A program made the position numbers and the translations under genes. The notes under the pieces are model-generated. The model did not search any database. It worked only from the letters and a program-made list of their open reading frames with translations, and was not told the DNA's origin. Of a DNA stretch of 64,000 bases, positions 8,107 to 60,845 are shown in pieces. How positions within the stretch are numbered: the stretch's first letter is position 1; every line of letters starts with the position of its first letter. Origin of the DNA: Ruminococcus sp. (GTDB taxonomy: Bacteria; Bacillota; Clostridia; Oscillospirales; Ruminococcaceae); assembly GCA_015066815.1 (NCBI GenBank), contig SVNR01000003.1:1-64000 (forward strand), in the 5' to 3' direction.

Positions 8107-8147
8107 ATTATAGTGAACGTCAAAATAAATCTGACTTTTGCTATAAT
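8107..8147 (+). repeat. A-type palindrome in the leader of the gene at 8187
   Basis: The left arm TTATAGTGAACGTCAAAAT and a partly decayed right arm (TCTGACTTTTGCTATAA) match the dispersed A hairpin seen at 44.6, 55.3 and 60.7 kb. The preceding TATAGTGGACGC (about 8092) may be a second truncated arm. Confidence 0.75.
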
Positions 8148-14804: not shown

Positions 14805-15073
14805 CAAAAAAATAACTCCCGTCCTGAGAACAGGACGGGAGAATAAATTTACCCGTGGTACCACCTGAATTACCGTTTATATAGAAAACGGTCACTCTCT
14901 CTGCGTAACGTGCAGAATACGACGCCCCTAATAACCTTCTGCCTGAAGACTTTCAGTTTGCTGCTCCCGGGTGTTATTCACACAGACTCTGCTATGCGGT
15001 TTGCACTGTCCCGCACTCACTGTGAACGATTTTCTGTATTACTTCTCCCGATCGTTGCATTTAGATTTACAGA
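14805..15073 (-). ncRNA. Asparagine T-box riboswitch with terminator
   Basis: On the minus strand the leader shows the T-box sequence GGTGGTACCACGGGT (about 14851-14865), then a terminator with 11-bp arms CTCCCGTCCTG / CAGGACGGGAG (14816-14841) and seven U. Stem I contains the GGGAGAAGTAAT loop-E-like motif. A candidate specifier AAC (14973-14975, in GAATAACACC) would read asparagine. Uncharged tRNA-Asn pairing to the T-box bulge would favour the antiterminator and turn on asnS-asnA. The specifier assignment is by eye. Confidence 0.92.
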
Positions 15074-24346: not shown

Positions 24347-24375
24347 TTGACAGAAACAGATTTATATGATATTAT
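24347..24375 (+). promoter_or_regulatory. Promoter of coaX
   Basis: TTGACA, 17 nt, TATTAT. A TATAAT three bases further on would give a 20-nt spacer and is less likely. Confidence 0.65.
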
Positions 24376-24408
24376 AATGAAAGCCAAAAAAACTGACTTT
24401 CACTATAA
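24371..24408 (+). repeat. Decayed A-type palindrome in the coaX leader
   Basis: ATTATAATGAAAGCCA and TGACTTTCACTATAAC form an imperfect hairpin matching the A module. The right arm TGACTTTCACTATAA is identical to the arms at 55.3 and 60.7 kb. Confidence 0.65.
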
Positions 24409-38140: not shown

Positions 38141-38176
38141 ATAATGAACGCAAAAATATTTTTTTGCGTTCATTAT
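38141..38176. repeat. Perfect A-type hairpin after ftsZ
   Basis: ATAATGAACGCAAAAA / TTTTTGCGTTCATTAT, 16 bp perfect with a 4-nt loop. Relative to the ATAGTGAACG arms elsewhere, one base pair is changed on both sides (G-C to A-T). It may also end ftsZ transcription. Confidence 0.8.
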
Positions 38177-44595: not shown

Positions 44596-44860
44596 TATAG
44601 TGAACTAAAAAAACTTTTCGTTCACTATTAGCCGATATGCACGGAGTGACCGCAGGGAACGGATGTGCAAGGCAATATTAATAAATTATAGTAAACGCAA
44701 TAAATAAATTGCGTTTACTATTAGCCGATCTGCACGGAGATGACGCAGTCATCGGATGTGCAAGGCAATATAAATAAAATAATTATAGTGAAAGTCAAAT
44801 TTATTTTGACGTTCACTATAATTACAGTGAAAGTCAGATTTGTTTTGACGTTCACTATAA
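44596..44860 (+). repeat. Six-module palindrome array A-B-A-B-A-A
   Basis: Modules in order: A1 44596-44628 (ATAGTGAAC / GTTCACTAT), B1 44629-44678, A2 44688-44721 (14-bp perfect ATAGTAAACGCAAT / ATTGCGTTTACTAT), B2 44722-44770, A3 44783-44822, A4 44822-44859 (both GTGAAAGTCA... / TTGACGTTCAC). In B2, AGCC / GGC, TGCAC / GTGCA and GATGAC / GTCATC nest into one long interrupted stem. The array fills the gap before the aminotransferase gene. Confidence 0.9.
44683..44823 (+). mobile_element. 141-bp A-B-A unit, copy 1 (MITE/REP-like)
   Basis: This segment (A2, B2, A3) is base-for-base the reverse complement of 60705-60845 by manual comparison. Its ends are imperfect inverted repeats (AATTATAGTAAACGCA and AATTATAGTGAACGTC). 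No coding capacity, so movement would need a transposase in trans. Mobility is inferred from the identity. Confidence 0.75.
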
Positions 44861-49274: not shown

Positions 49275-50801
49275 ATGAAAACAAGGAAAATGAGAAAAGT
49301 TGTTGCTTCAGTATTTTCGGTGATACTCAGTTCGTCGATGCTTTGCGGTACATCGTCGGCTCTGGTAGCAGATGATGTGCTTAACGAAACTACTGATGAG
49401 CTTCAGCAGTGCATAATCGATTATATTTTTGTAAAGAACTATATTTCCGGAAACATTATTCTGAGCAATGATTTTTCAAAAAAGCTTGATATGAATAACG
49501 ACGGATACACAAACATTATTGATCTCAATCATCTGAAAAGCAGGATATTAGAGCTTTCAGGGAAGGATAAAAACGAACCGCCTGTGACAACAGCTTCTTC
49601 GGAAACAACAGCATCATCTGTGACAACAGCGCCGTCAGGTACAACAGTATCATCTGTGACAACAGCGCCGTCAGGTACAACAGTATCATCTGTGACAACA
49701 GCGCCGTCAGGTACAACAGCATCATCTGTAACTACAACGCCTTCCGGAACAGCAGTAACTTCTGCGGTAATACGTACGGATATAAGCAAGGGTGACTATG
49801 TTTCTTACAGCGGAAAGGCGTACTATACAGCAAGCGGAAAAGGCGGAGAAATAAACATTTCCGGAATCTTCAGAATAGCAGATATACTTGTTGATTCGGT
49901 GTATCCGTATACTGTACAGCTTGAAAATACAGGCTGGGTTGCAGCAGACAAAGTAAAAAAAGCAGCCGTAACAACACAGAAGGTAACAACAGCCCCTCCT
50001 GTAACAACAACTTCATCAACAGCTGTCACAACACCCCCTCCTGTCACAACGGTACCTCCTGTTACAACAGTACCTGTAACAACAAAGCCTGTTGTGGTGA
50101 CAGGAAGCGAGGTTAAAAAAGGAGACTATGTTTCTTACAACGGTAAGGCTTACTATACTGCAAGCGGTAACGGGGGACAGGTGAATATTTCAGGAATCTT
50201 CAAGATAGCAGATATACTTGTTGATTCAGTATATCCGTATACAGTACAGCTTGAAAACACCGGATGGGTTTCATACAAGGAGCTTACCGGAAGTGAACAG
50301 CAATCTGTAAACATTGACATTATAAACAAGCTTGACGGAAGTACATACAGAATAAAAAATGCTGCAAGCGGAAAATACCTTACAGTTACCGGAACGTCTG
50401 ATCGTTCAAACATATGTCAGGCATCAGAAAAGAATGATAATACACAGCTTTTCAAAGCGTCAAGGTATTATGCCTCTCTGAGTTACAGACTGTATGCAGA
50501 GTGCTCAACCGAAGGAAAGGTTCTTGATATAGTAAAAAAAGATGAGGAGTACGTTGCTGAGGGCTGCAATATTCAGCTTTATGAATCAATTGACCCTGAG
50601 GCTCAGATATGGAAGATAGAATCAGTCGGCAACGACAGATTCAGAATAGTTTCAGCTTCTGCTCCGGGATTTGCTGTTACTGCAAACGGCTCGGGTGATG
50701 GTTCTGCAACCGGTAAGCTTCCGACATCCGAAGGAAATGTATATCTTTCGGAGTACAAAGGTACTGATAACCAGCTGTGGATACTCGAAAAGAAGTCCTG
50801 A
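49275..50801 (+). CDS. Secreted protein with degenerate dockerin, tandem SH3-like repeats and ricin-type lectin
   Basis: 508 residues. Signal peptide (about 1-31). A dockerin-like segment (about 40-95) has a clear second calcium loop (DMNNDGYTNIIDLNHL) but no recognisable first loop. A Thr/Ser linker of 12-residue repeats follows (about 100-165). Next come two SH3-like domains of about 55 residues (starting KGDYVSYSGKAYYTASG and KGDYVSYNGKAYYTASG), separated by a Thr/Pro linker. A C-terminal ricin B-type beta-trefoil (about 350-508) has TQLF, AQIWKIE and NQLWILE repeats. No catalytic module is visible, so it is an adhesin or binding component for wall and carbohydrate. It is 20 bases after the C39-like gene and may be cotranscribed. 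Confidence 0.82.
   Translation: MKTRKMRKVVASVFSVILSSSMLCGTSSALVADDVLNETTDELQQCIIDYIFVKNYISGNIILSNDFSKKLDMNNDGYTNIIDLNHLKSRILELSGKDKNEPPVTTASSETTASSVTTAPSGTTVSSVTTAPSGTTVSSVTTAPSGTTASSVTTTPSGTAVTSAVIRTDISKGDYVSYSGKAYYTASGKGGEINISGIFRIADILVDSVYPYTVQLENTGWVAADKVKKAAVTTQKVTTAPPVTTTSSTAVTTPPPVTTVPPVTTVPVTTKPVVVTGSEVKKGDYVSYNGKAYYTASGNGGQVNISGIFKIADILVDSVYPYTVQLENTGWVSYKELTGSEQQSVNIDIINKLDGSTYRIKNAASGKYLTVTGTSDRSNICQASEKNDNTQLFKASRYYASLSYRLYAECSTEGKVLDIVKKDEEYVAEGCNIQLYESIDPEAQIWKIESVGNDRFRIVSASAPGFAVTANGSGDGSATGKLPTSEGNVYLSEYKGTDNQLWILEKKS
49611..49754 (+). repeat. Four tandem 36-bp linker repeats
   Basis: Units begin at 49611, 49647, 49683 and 49719, each encoding a variant of SSVTTAPSGTTV. The middle units are identical, the sign of recent slippage. 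Confidence 0.9.
49783..50274 (+). repeat. Duplicated SH3-like coding blocks
   Basis: Two blocks of about 150 bp (from about 49789 and from about 50122) are clearly similar at DNA level. Differences fall mostly at third codon positions, showing an internal duplication under protein-level selection. Confidence 0.85.
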
Positions 50802-55268: not shown

Positions 55269-55305
55269 TATAGTCAACGTCAAAAAAAATTGACTTTCAC
55301 TATAT
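55268..55305 (+). repeat. A-type hairpin in the ABC-F leader
   Basis: TTATAGTCAACGTCAA and TTGACTTTCACTATA pair with two internal mismatches at the same place as in other copies (AACG opposite CTTT). It lies at the 5' end of the predicted transcript. Confidence 0.8.
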
Positions 55306-55361: not shown

Positions 55362-57302
55362 ATGCTTTTGAGCATGACAAACGTAAACAAGTTTTACAAC
55401 GGAAATCAGATACTAAAAAACATAAATCTTACAATAGATGAAAATGACCGTATAGGTCTTATCGGAATAAACGGATGCGGAAAAACTACGCTTCTCAGGC
55501 TTATAACAGGTAAGGAGGATCCTGACCGTTTTACCGATGAGGACGGAATAATCTCATTTGCTTCAAAAACAAACATAGGCTATCTTGAACAGATGGGAGC
55601 TCTTGATAACGATAATACAGTTATCGATGAAATGAAAAGTGTTTTTTCAGAATTGCTTTCTATGGGCGAGAGGATGAAGGAGCTTGAAAAGCTTATGGCG
55701 GAAAAGCCATCCGACTATGATGCACTTTCTGAAGAGTATTCCAGAATATCCGCATACTATGAAGCAAATGACGGATATATAATAAAAGTAAAAATAAAAA
55801 CTATACTCAACGGTATGGGCTTTTCTGAGGAGCTTTTTGACAGAGTGATATCGAGCTTTTCGGGAGGAGAAAAAACAAGACTTGCAATAGCCAAGCTCCT
55901 TCTTGAAAATCCTAATATCCTTATTCTCGACGAACCTACAAACCATCTTGATTTCAGAACGGTAATGTGGCTCGAGGATTATCTTAAGGATTATAAGGGA
56001 GCACTGCTTATCGTATCGCATGACAGATATTTTCTCGATAAGACAGTTACGTCCATATGCGAGATAGAAAACTCAGTTCTGACACGCTACAAAGGAAATT
56101 ATTCTGTTTTTACAAAGCTTAAGGAAGAAGCTGTTACAAGACAGCAAAAGGAATACGACCTTCAGCAAAAAGAAATAGCAAAGATGGAGGATTACGTTGC
56201 CCGTAATCTTGTCAGAGCGTCAACATCAAAAAGTGCCAAGAGCAGAATAAAAGCTCTTGACAAAATGGAGCGTATAGAAAAACCAAATACATATCATAAA
56301 GCGGCAAAGCTTGATTTTACTTTCGGGATAACACCTCCTCAGGAGGTTCTGAAGATAAAGGATATAGATATATCAGTAGGCTTCGGAGCAGAAAAGAAAA
56401 CTCTTGTAGAAAACCTTTCCTTTGAAGTAAGAAGAGGAGAAAAGCTTGCAGTTATAGGCGATAACGGAATCGGAAAATCCACACTGCTCAAGATAATTCA
56501 GGAGAAGCTTCCGCACAAGGGTAAGGTAATATGGGCGTCAAATGTAAAAATATCATACTTCGATCAGGAAGCTGAAAACATAAACAGAGCAAATACGGTT
56601 TTTGAAGAAATACACAGGCGTTATCCGCTGCTGACAGATCTTGATGTTCGTAATCTTCTCGGAAAAGTAAGACTTGTCGGAGAAAATGTTTTCAAGCAGG
56701 CAGGAGTCGTAAGCGGAGGAGAGCGCTGTAAACTCTGTTTTGCAATAATGATGATGGAGCACGGAAACGTACTCATACTTGACGAGCCTACAAACCACCT
56801 TGATCTTCAGACAAAGGAAGTTCTTGAAGACGCTCTTGACAGGTTTGAGGGAACAATAATATATGTTTCACATGACAGATATCTGTTAAACAAGATCTCA
56901 ACAAGAATACTTGAGATAACTGCAAACAGCACAGAGAGCTTTGACGGCGGCTTTGACGAATATATGAAAGTAAAGCGTCAGAGAGAACAGGCTGCTGCAG
57001 AAGAAGCTGAAGCTGTAAAACAGGAAAAGCTAAAAGAGCAGTATGCAGAAAAGAAGGAAAAAGCCTTCAAAACCAAGGAACAGCGAAATCTTGAAGCGAA
57101 AACAAGACAGCGTATACGCCTTCTTGAACAGCAGATGGCTGAGCTTCAGGAGGAGCAGGAGAAGCTTGAGACAGAGCTTATGGATGAAAACGTAATATCA
57201 GATTATAATCTGATGAACGAAAAATGCACAAGAATAAACGAAATAAAAGAGCTTTCAAACACACTTTTTGATGAGTGGGCAGAGCTTTCTGAGCAGTTAT
57301 AG
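55362..57302 (+). CDS. ABC-F family ATPase (ribosome-associated type)
   Basis: 646 residues with two ABC domains and no membrane part. Domain 1 has Walker A GINGCGKTTLL, signature FSGGEKTRL and Walker B LILDEPTNHLDF. Domain 2 has GDNGIGKSTLL, VSGGERCKL and LILDEPTNHLDL. The interdomain linker (P-site tRNA interaction motif region) lies at about 235-320. A long C-terminal coiled coil (about 540-646) resembles the YdiF/Uup group. ABC-F proteins act on the ribosomal E site in translation control or antibiotic protection; which applies is unknown. The start ATG 55362 follows GGTGAT by seven bases; the open frame extends to 55230, but that is before the likely transcript start. The stop TAG is inside a repeat arm. 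Confidence 0.9.
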   Translation: MLLSMTNVNKFYNGNQILKNINLTIDENDRIGLIGINGCGKTTLLRLITGKEDPDRFTDEDGIISFASKTNIGYLEQMGALDNDNTVIDEMKSVFSELLSMGERMKELEKLMAEKPSDYDALSEEYSRISAYYEANDGYIIKVKIKTILNGMGFSEELFDRVISSFSGGEKTRLAIAKLLLENPNILILDEPTNHLDFRTVMWLEDYLKDYKGALLIVSHDRYFLDKTVTSICEIENSVLTRYKGNYSVFTKLKEEAVTRQQKEYDLQQKEIAKMEDYVARNLVRASTSKSAKSRIKALDKMERIEKPNTYHKAAKLDFTFGITPPQEVLKIKDIDISVGFGAEKKTLVENLSFEVRRGEKLAVIGDNGIGKSTLLKIIQEKLPHKGKVIWASNVKISYFDQEAENINRANTVFEEIHRRYPLLTDLDVRNLLGKVRLVGENVFKQAGVVSGGERCKLCFAIMMMEHGNVLILDEPTNHLDLQTKEVLEDALDRFEGTIIYVSHDRYLLNKISTRILEITANSTESFDGGFDEYMKVKRQREQAAAEEAEAVKQEKLKEQYAEKKEKAFKTKEQRNLEAKTRQRIRLLEQQMAELQEEQEKLETELMDENVISDYNLMNEKCTRINEIKELSNTLFDEWAELSEQL

Positions 57303-57379
57303 TGAACGAAAAAAATATTTTTTGGTTCACTATTAGCCGATATGCAAGGCAATAAAAATTAAACCTTTTATTCACTATA
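57297..57379 (+). repeat. A-B(short)-A element between the ABC-F gene and tex
   Basis: A hairpin ATAGTGAAC / GTTCACTAT (57298-57333), then a B module reduced to TTAGCCGATATGCAAGGCAA (57333-57352), then an A right arm TTATTCACTATAG ending at the tex ribosome site. The short B lacks the segment between its two TGCA repeats. The first TATAG provides the ABC-F stop codon. Confidence 0.8.
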
Positions 57380-59594: not shown

Positions 59595-59634
59595 TATAGT
59601 CAACGAAAAAAACATTTTTTAGATCACTATAATT
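59594..59634. repeat. A-type palindrome between tex and the convergent gene
   Basis: Left arm TTATAGTCAACGAAAAAA and right arm TTTTTTAGATCACTATAATTA. The right end supplies the TAA stop of the minus-strand gene (59633-59635). Confidence 0.7.
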
Positions 59635-60553
59635 ATTCAGCTGGTTCAGGAGCAGGTTCCGGTTCGGGAGCCGGCTCAGGTTCCGGTTCCGGTTCCGGCT
59701 CAGGCTCCGGTTCGGGAACCGGTTCAGGTTCAGGTTCCGGAGATGGCTCAGGTTCCGGCTCGACTACAGGAGGTTCGGTTTCCTGAGGAGGTGCCTGTGT
59801 AACAGGTGGTTCAGTTACAGGAGGTTCGGTAATCACCGGATCTGTAGCCTCGGGTTTTGAGTTTTCCGGCTTTGTTGCATCCGTTACGCCTGTCTGTTTT
59901 GTTACAGCTCCGGAAGTAACTGAAGCAGTTGTTTTGGTTACTTTTGCAGTGACAGATTTTTTTGCTGTTGTTGTCACATAGTTATTGCTCCAGCCCCATT
60001 TTTGAGCAGTGGTAACAGTTGCTTTTGTAGTTATAAGAGTAAGAGCGGATTCTGTACCTTCTGAAGGAGCGGCAGTAACCTTTGGTATACGTGATTCGTT
60101 TACGGAAACCTCGATGTTGTAAGCGTAGTAAACATCCTTGTTGTACAGGGATACCACAGCTACGATCATGACGTTTGTGTTTCCTGCACTTGTAAGAGTA
60201 CGCATTGTTCTTCCGTCATCAAAAAACACGCTCAGCTCGTCTATGTTTACGTCGTTGATTTTTACGGTAGTGTTCTGAGGGAGTCCTGTATTTTTTGCAA
60301 TGGCTGATTTTAATGCTTCTTTTGCTGAAAATGGTTCATCGGCATAGATCTCTGTATCCGATGGAAAAGCTCCCATATATATAGCTTCATCGATCAGTTC
60401 GGAAATTTTTATAGTCGGATTGAGTGCATCTTGTACCGGATCGCTGTTCTCGTTTTTCTCCTTGTCCGGGAAAATTATGTTTTTTATAGCTATTGTAAAT
60501 ATAACAACTACAACAGTGATAAGTACGCCGATTATTATGTTTCGTTTTATCAC
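59633..60553 (-). CDS. Membrane-anchored protein with a Pro/Glu repeat tail
   Basis: 306 residues. GTG start (60553) with AAAGGATAGGA upstream. It has an N-terminal signal anchor (about 5-27, IIIGVLITVVVVIFTIAIKN), an extracellular domain of about 120 residues without a known family (KISELIDEAIYMGAFPSDTE onward), a Thr/Lys-rich linker (about 165-225), then a tail of Pro-Glu-Pro repeats (about 245-306). Such tails commonly span the peptidoglycan. The gene stands alone, convergent to tex. The tail's DNA is a degenerate hexanucleotide-based repeat and likely length-variable. Confidence 0.75.
   Translation of the reverse strand: MIKRNIIIGVLITVVVVIFTIAIKNIIFPDKEKNENSDPVQDALNPTIKISELIDEAIYMGAFPSDTEIYADEPFSAKEALKSAIAKNTGLPQNTTVKINDVNIDELSVFFDDGRTMRTLTSAGNTNVMIVAVVSLYNKDVYYAYNIEVSVNESRIPKVTAAPSEGTESALTLITTKATVTTAQKWGWSNNYVTTTAKKSVTAKVTKTTASVTSGAVTKQTGVTDATKPENSKPEATDPVITEPPVTEPPVTQAPPQETEPPVVEPEPEPSPEPEPEPVPEPEPEPEPEPEPEPAPEPEPAPEPAE
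59640..59770 (-). repeat. GGTTCC/GGCTCA-type low-complexity repeat coding Pro-Glu
   Basis: An array of six-base units (GGTTCC, GGTTCA, GGCTCC and similar) encoding alternating Pro and Glu on the minus strand, the 3' end of the preceding gene. Confidence 0.85.
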
Positions 60554-60704: not shown

Positions 60705-60845
60705 AATTATAGTGAACGTCAAAATAAATTTGACTTTCACTATAATTATTTTATTTATATTGCCTTGCACATCCGATGACTGCGTCATCTCCGTGCAGAT
60801 CGGCTAATAGTAAACGCAATTTATTTATTGCGTTTACTATAATTT
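60705..60845 (-). mobile_element. 141-bp A-B-A unit, copy 2 (inverted)
   Basis: Exact reverse complement of 44683-44823 over all 141 bases by manual comparison. It contains A (GTGAACGTCAAA / TTTGACTTTCAC), a complete B with GATGAC-GCA-GTCATC apex, and the 14-bp perfect A hairpin. It sits in the 600-bp gap between the Pro/Glu protein and the ABC exporter, outside any gene. Confidence 0.8.

Follow-up and report, generated by a model that had tools for sequence, protein, structure and literature searches.

The window analysed here, i.e. the whole stretch of 64,000 nucleotides at positions 1 to 64,000 of contig SVNR01000003.1 of Ruminococcus sp., carries two identical, oppositely oriented copies of a short repeat, one in the leader of an aspartate aminotransferase gene (copy 1) and the other beside an inverted gene (copy 2). 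Further members of the same repeat family were identified between and around the neighbouring genes, and the features of these regions are as follows:

44598-44857, minus strand: older family member (flanks read as a standard full-length element), interrupted by copy 1 in a TA of its spacer
44689-44818, minus strand: copy 1, identical 130-bp element in reverse orientation, with TA at 44687-44688 and 44819-44820
55271-55302, unstranded: solo 32-bp TA-flanked hairpin just downstream of the -10 box of an ABC-F gene; the aligned place is empty in G006, G007 and G009 (by eye)
57297-57376, minus strand: older family member, shortened internally, which separates the ABC-F gene from Tex (family match)
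59597-59629, unstranded: solo 33-bp TA-flanked hairpin with family ends, at one breakpoint of the inverted gene
59633-60553, minus strand: gene inverted relative to G004, G006, G007 and G009, with the solo hairpin and copy 2 at its borders
60708-60709, unstranded: probable TA target duplication left of copy 2 (from the TA duplication at filled/empty pairs)
60710-60839, plus strand: copy 2, complete 130-bp element TAGTGAACG...CGTTTACTA (boundary from eight filled/empty pairs in sister species)
60710-60742, plus strand: left hairpin, 33 bp, with the terminal repeat at both ends (folding, covariation)
60762-60804, plus strand: central hairpin GCCTTGCACATCCG...CGTGCAGATCGGC (folding, covariation)
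60808-60839, plus strand: right hairpin, 32 bp, TAGTAAACGCAAT...ATTGCGTTTACTA (folding, covariation)
60840-60841, unstranded: probable TA target duplication right of copy 2 (same basis as the left one)

Direct comparison of positions 60705-60845 and 44683-44823, described in the initial annotation as an exact reverse-complement pair, confirmed that these 141-nt stretches are 100% complementary (spacing 15,881 nt) and that the identity ends directly outside both of them; a chance match is excluded by their length. The identity is thus real, but the mobile unit is not the whole 141 bp. It is a 130-bp sequence of the form TAG...CTA (60710-60839 and 44689-44818) bounded by TA duplications, and the earlier unit was 11 bp too long because the target preference, AAT-TA-(A/T)TT, i.e. 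AAT-TA-WTT (consensus of 24 sites), provides both copies with the same AAT/ATT context. The unit has the properties of a MITE: it is short and AT-rich (GC content of 33%, vs 39.5% for the window), lacks a long ORF and is terminated by inverted repeats (TAGTGAACG / CGTTTACTA).

For 17 copies the two flanks were joined and used as queries against two sister species, G003 and G007, whose genomes are ~94% identical to each other. This alignment of flanks to relatives, proposed in the initial annotation, revealed eight clean empty sites between G003 and G007. All of them (8/8) resolve to TA/TAG...CTA/TA, with point differences between the species allowed; the empty genome of the L212/L223 pair has CA in place of the TA. 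At an example site the empty sequence is ...gctataatTATTATAACC... and the filled one is ...gctataatTA/TAGTGAACG...TTTACTA/TATTATAACC... (slashes mark the element ends). The eight pairs therefore display the TA target-site duplication expected of a MITE, with one common boundary, TAG...CTA, at every polymorphic site. The proposal that an A-B-A unit is transposed as one piece proved correct as regards movement, since each pair carries the whole unit and seven congeners lack an insertion where copy 1 lies; as regards layout, we found a single element with three hairpins between 2-bp TA duplications.

Copy 1 is a fresh element nested inside an older family member: after removal of 44689-44818 and one TA, the surrounding sequence constitutes a complete older family member. 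The whole insertion (44596-44859), missing from the seven congeners, occupies the 5' leader of the aspartate aminotransferase gene, where a conserved promoter-like sequence precedes it and the ribosome-binding site follows. Folding of the leader RNA is much stronger than that of its shuffles (z -10.4) and, judging from sequence, transcribed hairpins in gene leaders may affect expression. At first sight copy 1 looks like hairpin-hairpin-core-hairpin-core-hairpin with a period of 93 bp, and family members occur as the full unit, as the core plus right hairpin and as the solo hairpin; both observations would fit a BOX-like modular repeat, whose A, B and C modules are tandemly duplicated and moved by an unrelated transposase. 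However, the apparent tandem consists of two complete elements, one of them inserted at a TA of the other. This nesting is the source of the extra modules at copy 1 and largely refutes the tandem reading there. Moreover, the whole unit is present at 8/8 polymorphic sites (selected for their resemblance to the full unit), and tandem modules of the boxA-(boxB)n-boxC type were not found in the family, so that we regard a modular origin as improbable.

The initial annotation also considered the pair to be a substrate for inversion of the intervening DNA (44.8-60.7 kb). Perfect 141-bp inverted repeats are able to recombine, and a two-copy phase switch inverting the 16 kb between them could be built in this way. 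No such inversion was seen: seven congeners have the same gene order and orientation at the 44.6-kb junction, G006 also has its aminotransferase and ABC genes in a common orientation, and the two repeats belong to a set of many copies. A role as a phase switch is thus very improbable.

The source genome, searched whole (2.64 Mb, 92 contigs), contains 17 places at 98-100% identity over at least 106 bp and ~25 further ones at roughly 74-90%. The 16-base core pattern, with up to two mismatches, was detected in 117 places, vs 4 for the reversed control pattern. The search for further identical copies, suggested in the initial annotation, therefore revealed at least 17 near-identical ones (98-100%), and the supposed pair amounts to two of ~117 family members, a high copy number with a young, near-identical subfamily, as in MITEs. 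Short-read assemblies break at identical repeats, which accounts for the location of 9/17 young copies at contig ends; more generally, family copies coincide with short-read assembly breaks in these uncultured bacteria. Among 81 relatives (source genome included), matches were found in 9/10 same-genus genomes and in two genomes of other genera of the family, with no match in the remainder of the order. The named records carrying the core are MAGs of uncultured Ruminococcus / Oscillospiraceae, and no copy was detected in the plasmids, phages and viral contigs searched. As judged by simple ORF calling, only 3 of 102 distinct core-bearing copies are located inside ORFs. The remainder are intergenic or at a contig edge: 56 lie between co-directional, 20 between divergent and 12 between convergent genes, and the others at contig edges.

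Sister species carry copies at 99-100% identity to those of the window (in G003 and G007, 100% over 137 and 134 bp, respectively), whereas for the genes next to the window copies the identity to the sister-species orthologues is no more than 81-84%. We infer that the near-identical subfamily spread by horizontal transfer between species and was then amplified. It could be argued that gene conversion, or selection for a function of the sequence, keeps the copies identical, and that they are not recent insertions. Strong compensatory change in all three hairpins (see below) and a species-specific variant common to several sites are in line with this; several G003 copies (L211:618-746, L196:610-748, L209, L212) share the GGCACCGG variant, and the site of one of these is also filled in G007, with the usual sequence. 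This hints at conversion between copies, and gene conversion could help to maintain identity. Against this explanation, which appears unlikely as a whole, stand the empty copy 1 site in seven congeners, the presence of identical copies at different sites in different species, and the many members that are 75-90% alike, i.e. the sequence tolerates change. Constraint in particular is a poor explanation of the identity because other family members diverge freely; recent spread and amplification fit better. The initial suggestion that the copies are recent was therefore upheld by the empty copy 1 site and the filled/empty pairs between sister species, and the identity of both window copies reflects recent jumping rather than a repeat of some unknown kind.

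Three hairpins form when either strand of the element is folded (z ~ -8.4). In 27 diverse family members, two-sided changes occur in 23/41 pairs, and the covariation score is 0.247; shuffles give 0.098 (sd 0.008), and sliding gives no more than 0.063. Such strong compensatory change indicates that pairing in the hairpins is maintained, which can be due to selection on DNA ends or cruciforms, to selection on RNA, or to arm-to-arm correction. Comparison of the element with Rfam gave chance-level matches only, none above the gathering score. Solo hairpins of 31-36 bp with family ends, flanked by TA, were observed in the window at 8108-8147, 24373-24407, 38141-38174, 55271-55302 and 59597-59629; a search for the corresponding empty sites in the fetched sister loci returned self-matches only. 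It is conceivable, though rather doubtful, that TA-flanked hairpins of 31-33 bp are the basic mobile unit, that larger members were assembled from them, and that the arms are matched by arm-copying or folded-strand selection. If so, the solo hairpin, a palindrome with both ends, would perhaps be the smallest substrate of an IS630 transposase.

Hairpins are also typical of REPINs and of IS200/IS605 ends, so mobilisation by a RAYT or another HUH transposase, as of REP/REPIN or IS200/IS605-related palindromes, was considered. The TA duplication made at insertion of the element speaks against this: HUH transposition is not known to make a TA duplication. In addition, Y1_Tnp (PF01797) gave no match in the source genome, although control genomes did match, so that no RAYT was identified there. 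This origin is extremely unlikely.

A TA target and its duplication are features of IS630/Tc1-mariner elements, e.g. ISY100 (PMC2170065), so the TA duplication upon insertion points to a transposase of this group. IS630-type transposase genes present in this bacterial family, including a contig-end fragment in the source genome, end in TAGTRAACG, like the element. The candidate partner in the source genome is limited to this fragment: contig C77 ends inside an IS630-type gene and comprises its last 30 codons, the stop and then TTTTGTCGTTTACTATA. On G007 contig C295 a DDE_3 gene fragment ends beside TATAGTGAACGCATAAAAG. The C-terminus of the latter was searched in 397 genomes of the family, and a complete-looking IS630 of ~1.16 kb was found in G423 (L246:621-1780), with two overlapping frames encoding HTH_33 and DDE_3. 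It is bounded by TAGTAAACGACATAAATAAAT and TTTGTCGTTTACTA and flanked by TT instead of TA. Its left end agrees with the right end of the element in 19/22 bases, a score equalled by a fraction of 0.0004 of TA-anchored genomic 22-mers. Since the G423, C77 and G007 ends match, the lineage contains candidate partners (in the source genome, the contig-break fragment) that end like the element, though the similarity is short (9 bp exact). The frames of the G423 IS630 overlap where the sequence is A-rich, an arrangement also seen in cases of programmed -1 frameshifting.

Other candidates were rejected. The one recognised IS630 of the source genome, on contig C92, has ends reading TACTGTACTGACTTGCTGATG, unrelated to the element, and no matching end was found near the DDE_3 match of G010 (L243). 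In the C92 IS630 (L171, G000:C92:28248-31700) the transposase is in two pieces of one frame with a stop between them. The G003 assembly (88% complete), with its many young insertions, yielded no partner IS630, and when the fetched loci were scanned for genes enclosed by two family ends, none was recognisable as a transposase.

Taken with the unit boundaries, the TA duplication, the recent insertions, the high copy number, the nesting and the candidate partner ISs with matching ends, the family is very likely a recently active, TA-duplicating, IS630-partnered MITE family moved in trans by an IS630-type transposase. The sequence data suggest that the element most probably moves by means of such a borrowed enzyme. 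The enzyme acting on it in trans would be a Tc1/mariner-IS630 transposase from insertion sequences that lie elsewhere and have the same ends, and the element would be inserted by cut-and-paste at a TA, preferably AAT-TA-WTT, with duplication of the TA.

The closest parallel is RUP of Streptococcus pneumoniae, an AT-rich, non-coding sequence of roughly 110 bp (a 107-bp repeat) present in ~100 copies, with TA at both ends and a 9-bp terminal repeat resembling the one found in a resident IS630 (IS630-Spn1); it is mostly intergenic and nests with other repeats (PMC2229807, PMC3049150); its mobilisation in trans by IS630-Spn1 is itself inferred (PMC2229807). The likeness of the Ruminococcus family to RUP, which extends to all of these properties (copy number, short AT-rich non-coding sequence, IS630-like 9-bp ends, TA, intergenic location, nesting), is one of working principle. 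Besides its other host, the Ruminococcus element differs in its length of 130 bp, in its three separate hairpins, all of which covary, and in having family members that consist of a single 33-bp hairpin. With ISY100 and other IS630-Tc1/mariner ISs it shares the TA target and duplication, and the TT flanks of the G423 IS630 resemble the AA/TT that ISY100 sometimes duplicates (PMC2170065); in contrast to ISY100, which has 24-bp terminal repeats, it shares ~9 bp and carries no gene. Streptococcal BOX elements are similar in their high copy number, stem-loops and nested clusters (PMC3049150), but tandem boxB arrays were not found in the Ruminococcus family. The Correia elements of Neisseria are also TA-flanked MITEs with inverted repeats (PMC2229807, PMC10969869); they are set apart by description, i.e. 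by the 24-bp terminal repeats and other motifs reported for them. Most knowledge of IS630-partnered MITEs comes from a few groups, e.g. pneumococcus, and our literature search found none described for Ruminococcus. The present family is dense, very recently active and near-identical across species, and it occupies gene leaders as well as intergenic regions. With eight clean filled/empty pairs and a candidate partner at hand, transposition in trans is open to a direct test.

Family members also bound a gene inversion. In G004, G006, G007 and G009, ABC-F and Tex precede the gene, a small ORF and then an ABC transporter follow it, and all of them are co-directional. In the window the gene at 59633-60553 is inverted together with its promoter, the small ORF that follows it in the four congeners is missing, and the breakpoints coincide with the solo hairpin (59597-59629) and copy 2. 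As family members occupy perhaps 1/5 of the intergenic gaps here, coincidence at both breakpoints has, by rough estimate, a likelihood of a few per cent. The inversion may have arisen by recombination between family members, or by a transposase acting on both.

Elsewhere in the window, a T-box leader (RF00230, 119 bits) was identified on the minus strand at 14828-15064, and low-complexity tandem repeats were observed in two proteins, at 59641-59761 (proline/glutamate-rich) and 49582-49761 (threonine-rich).
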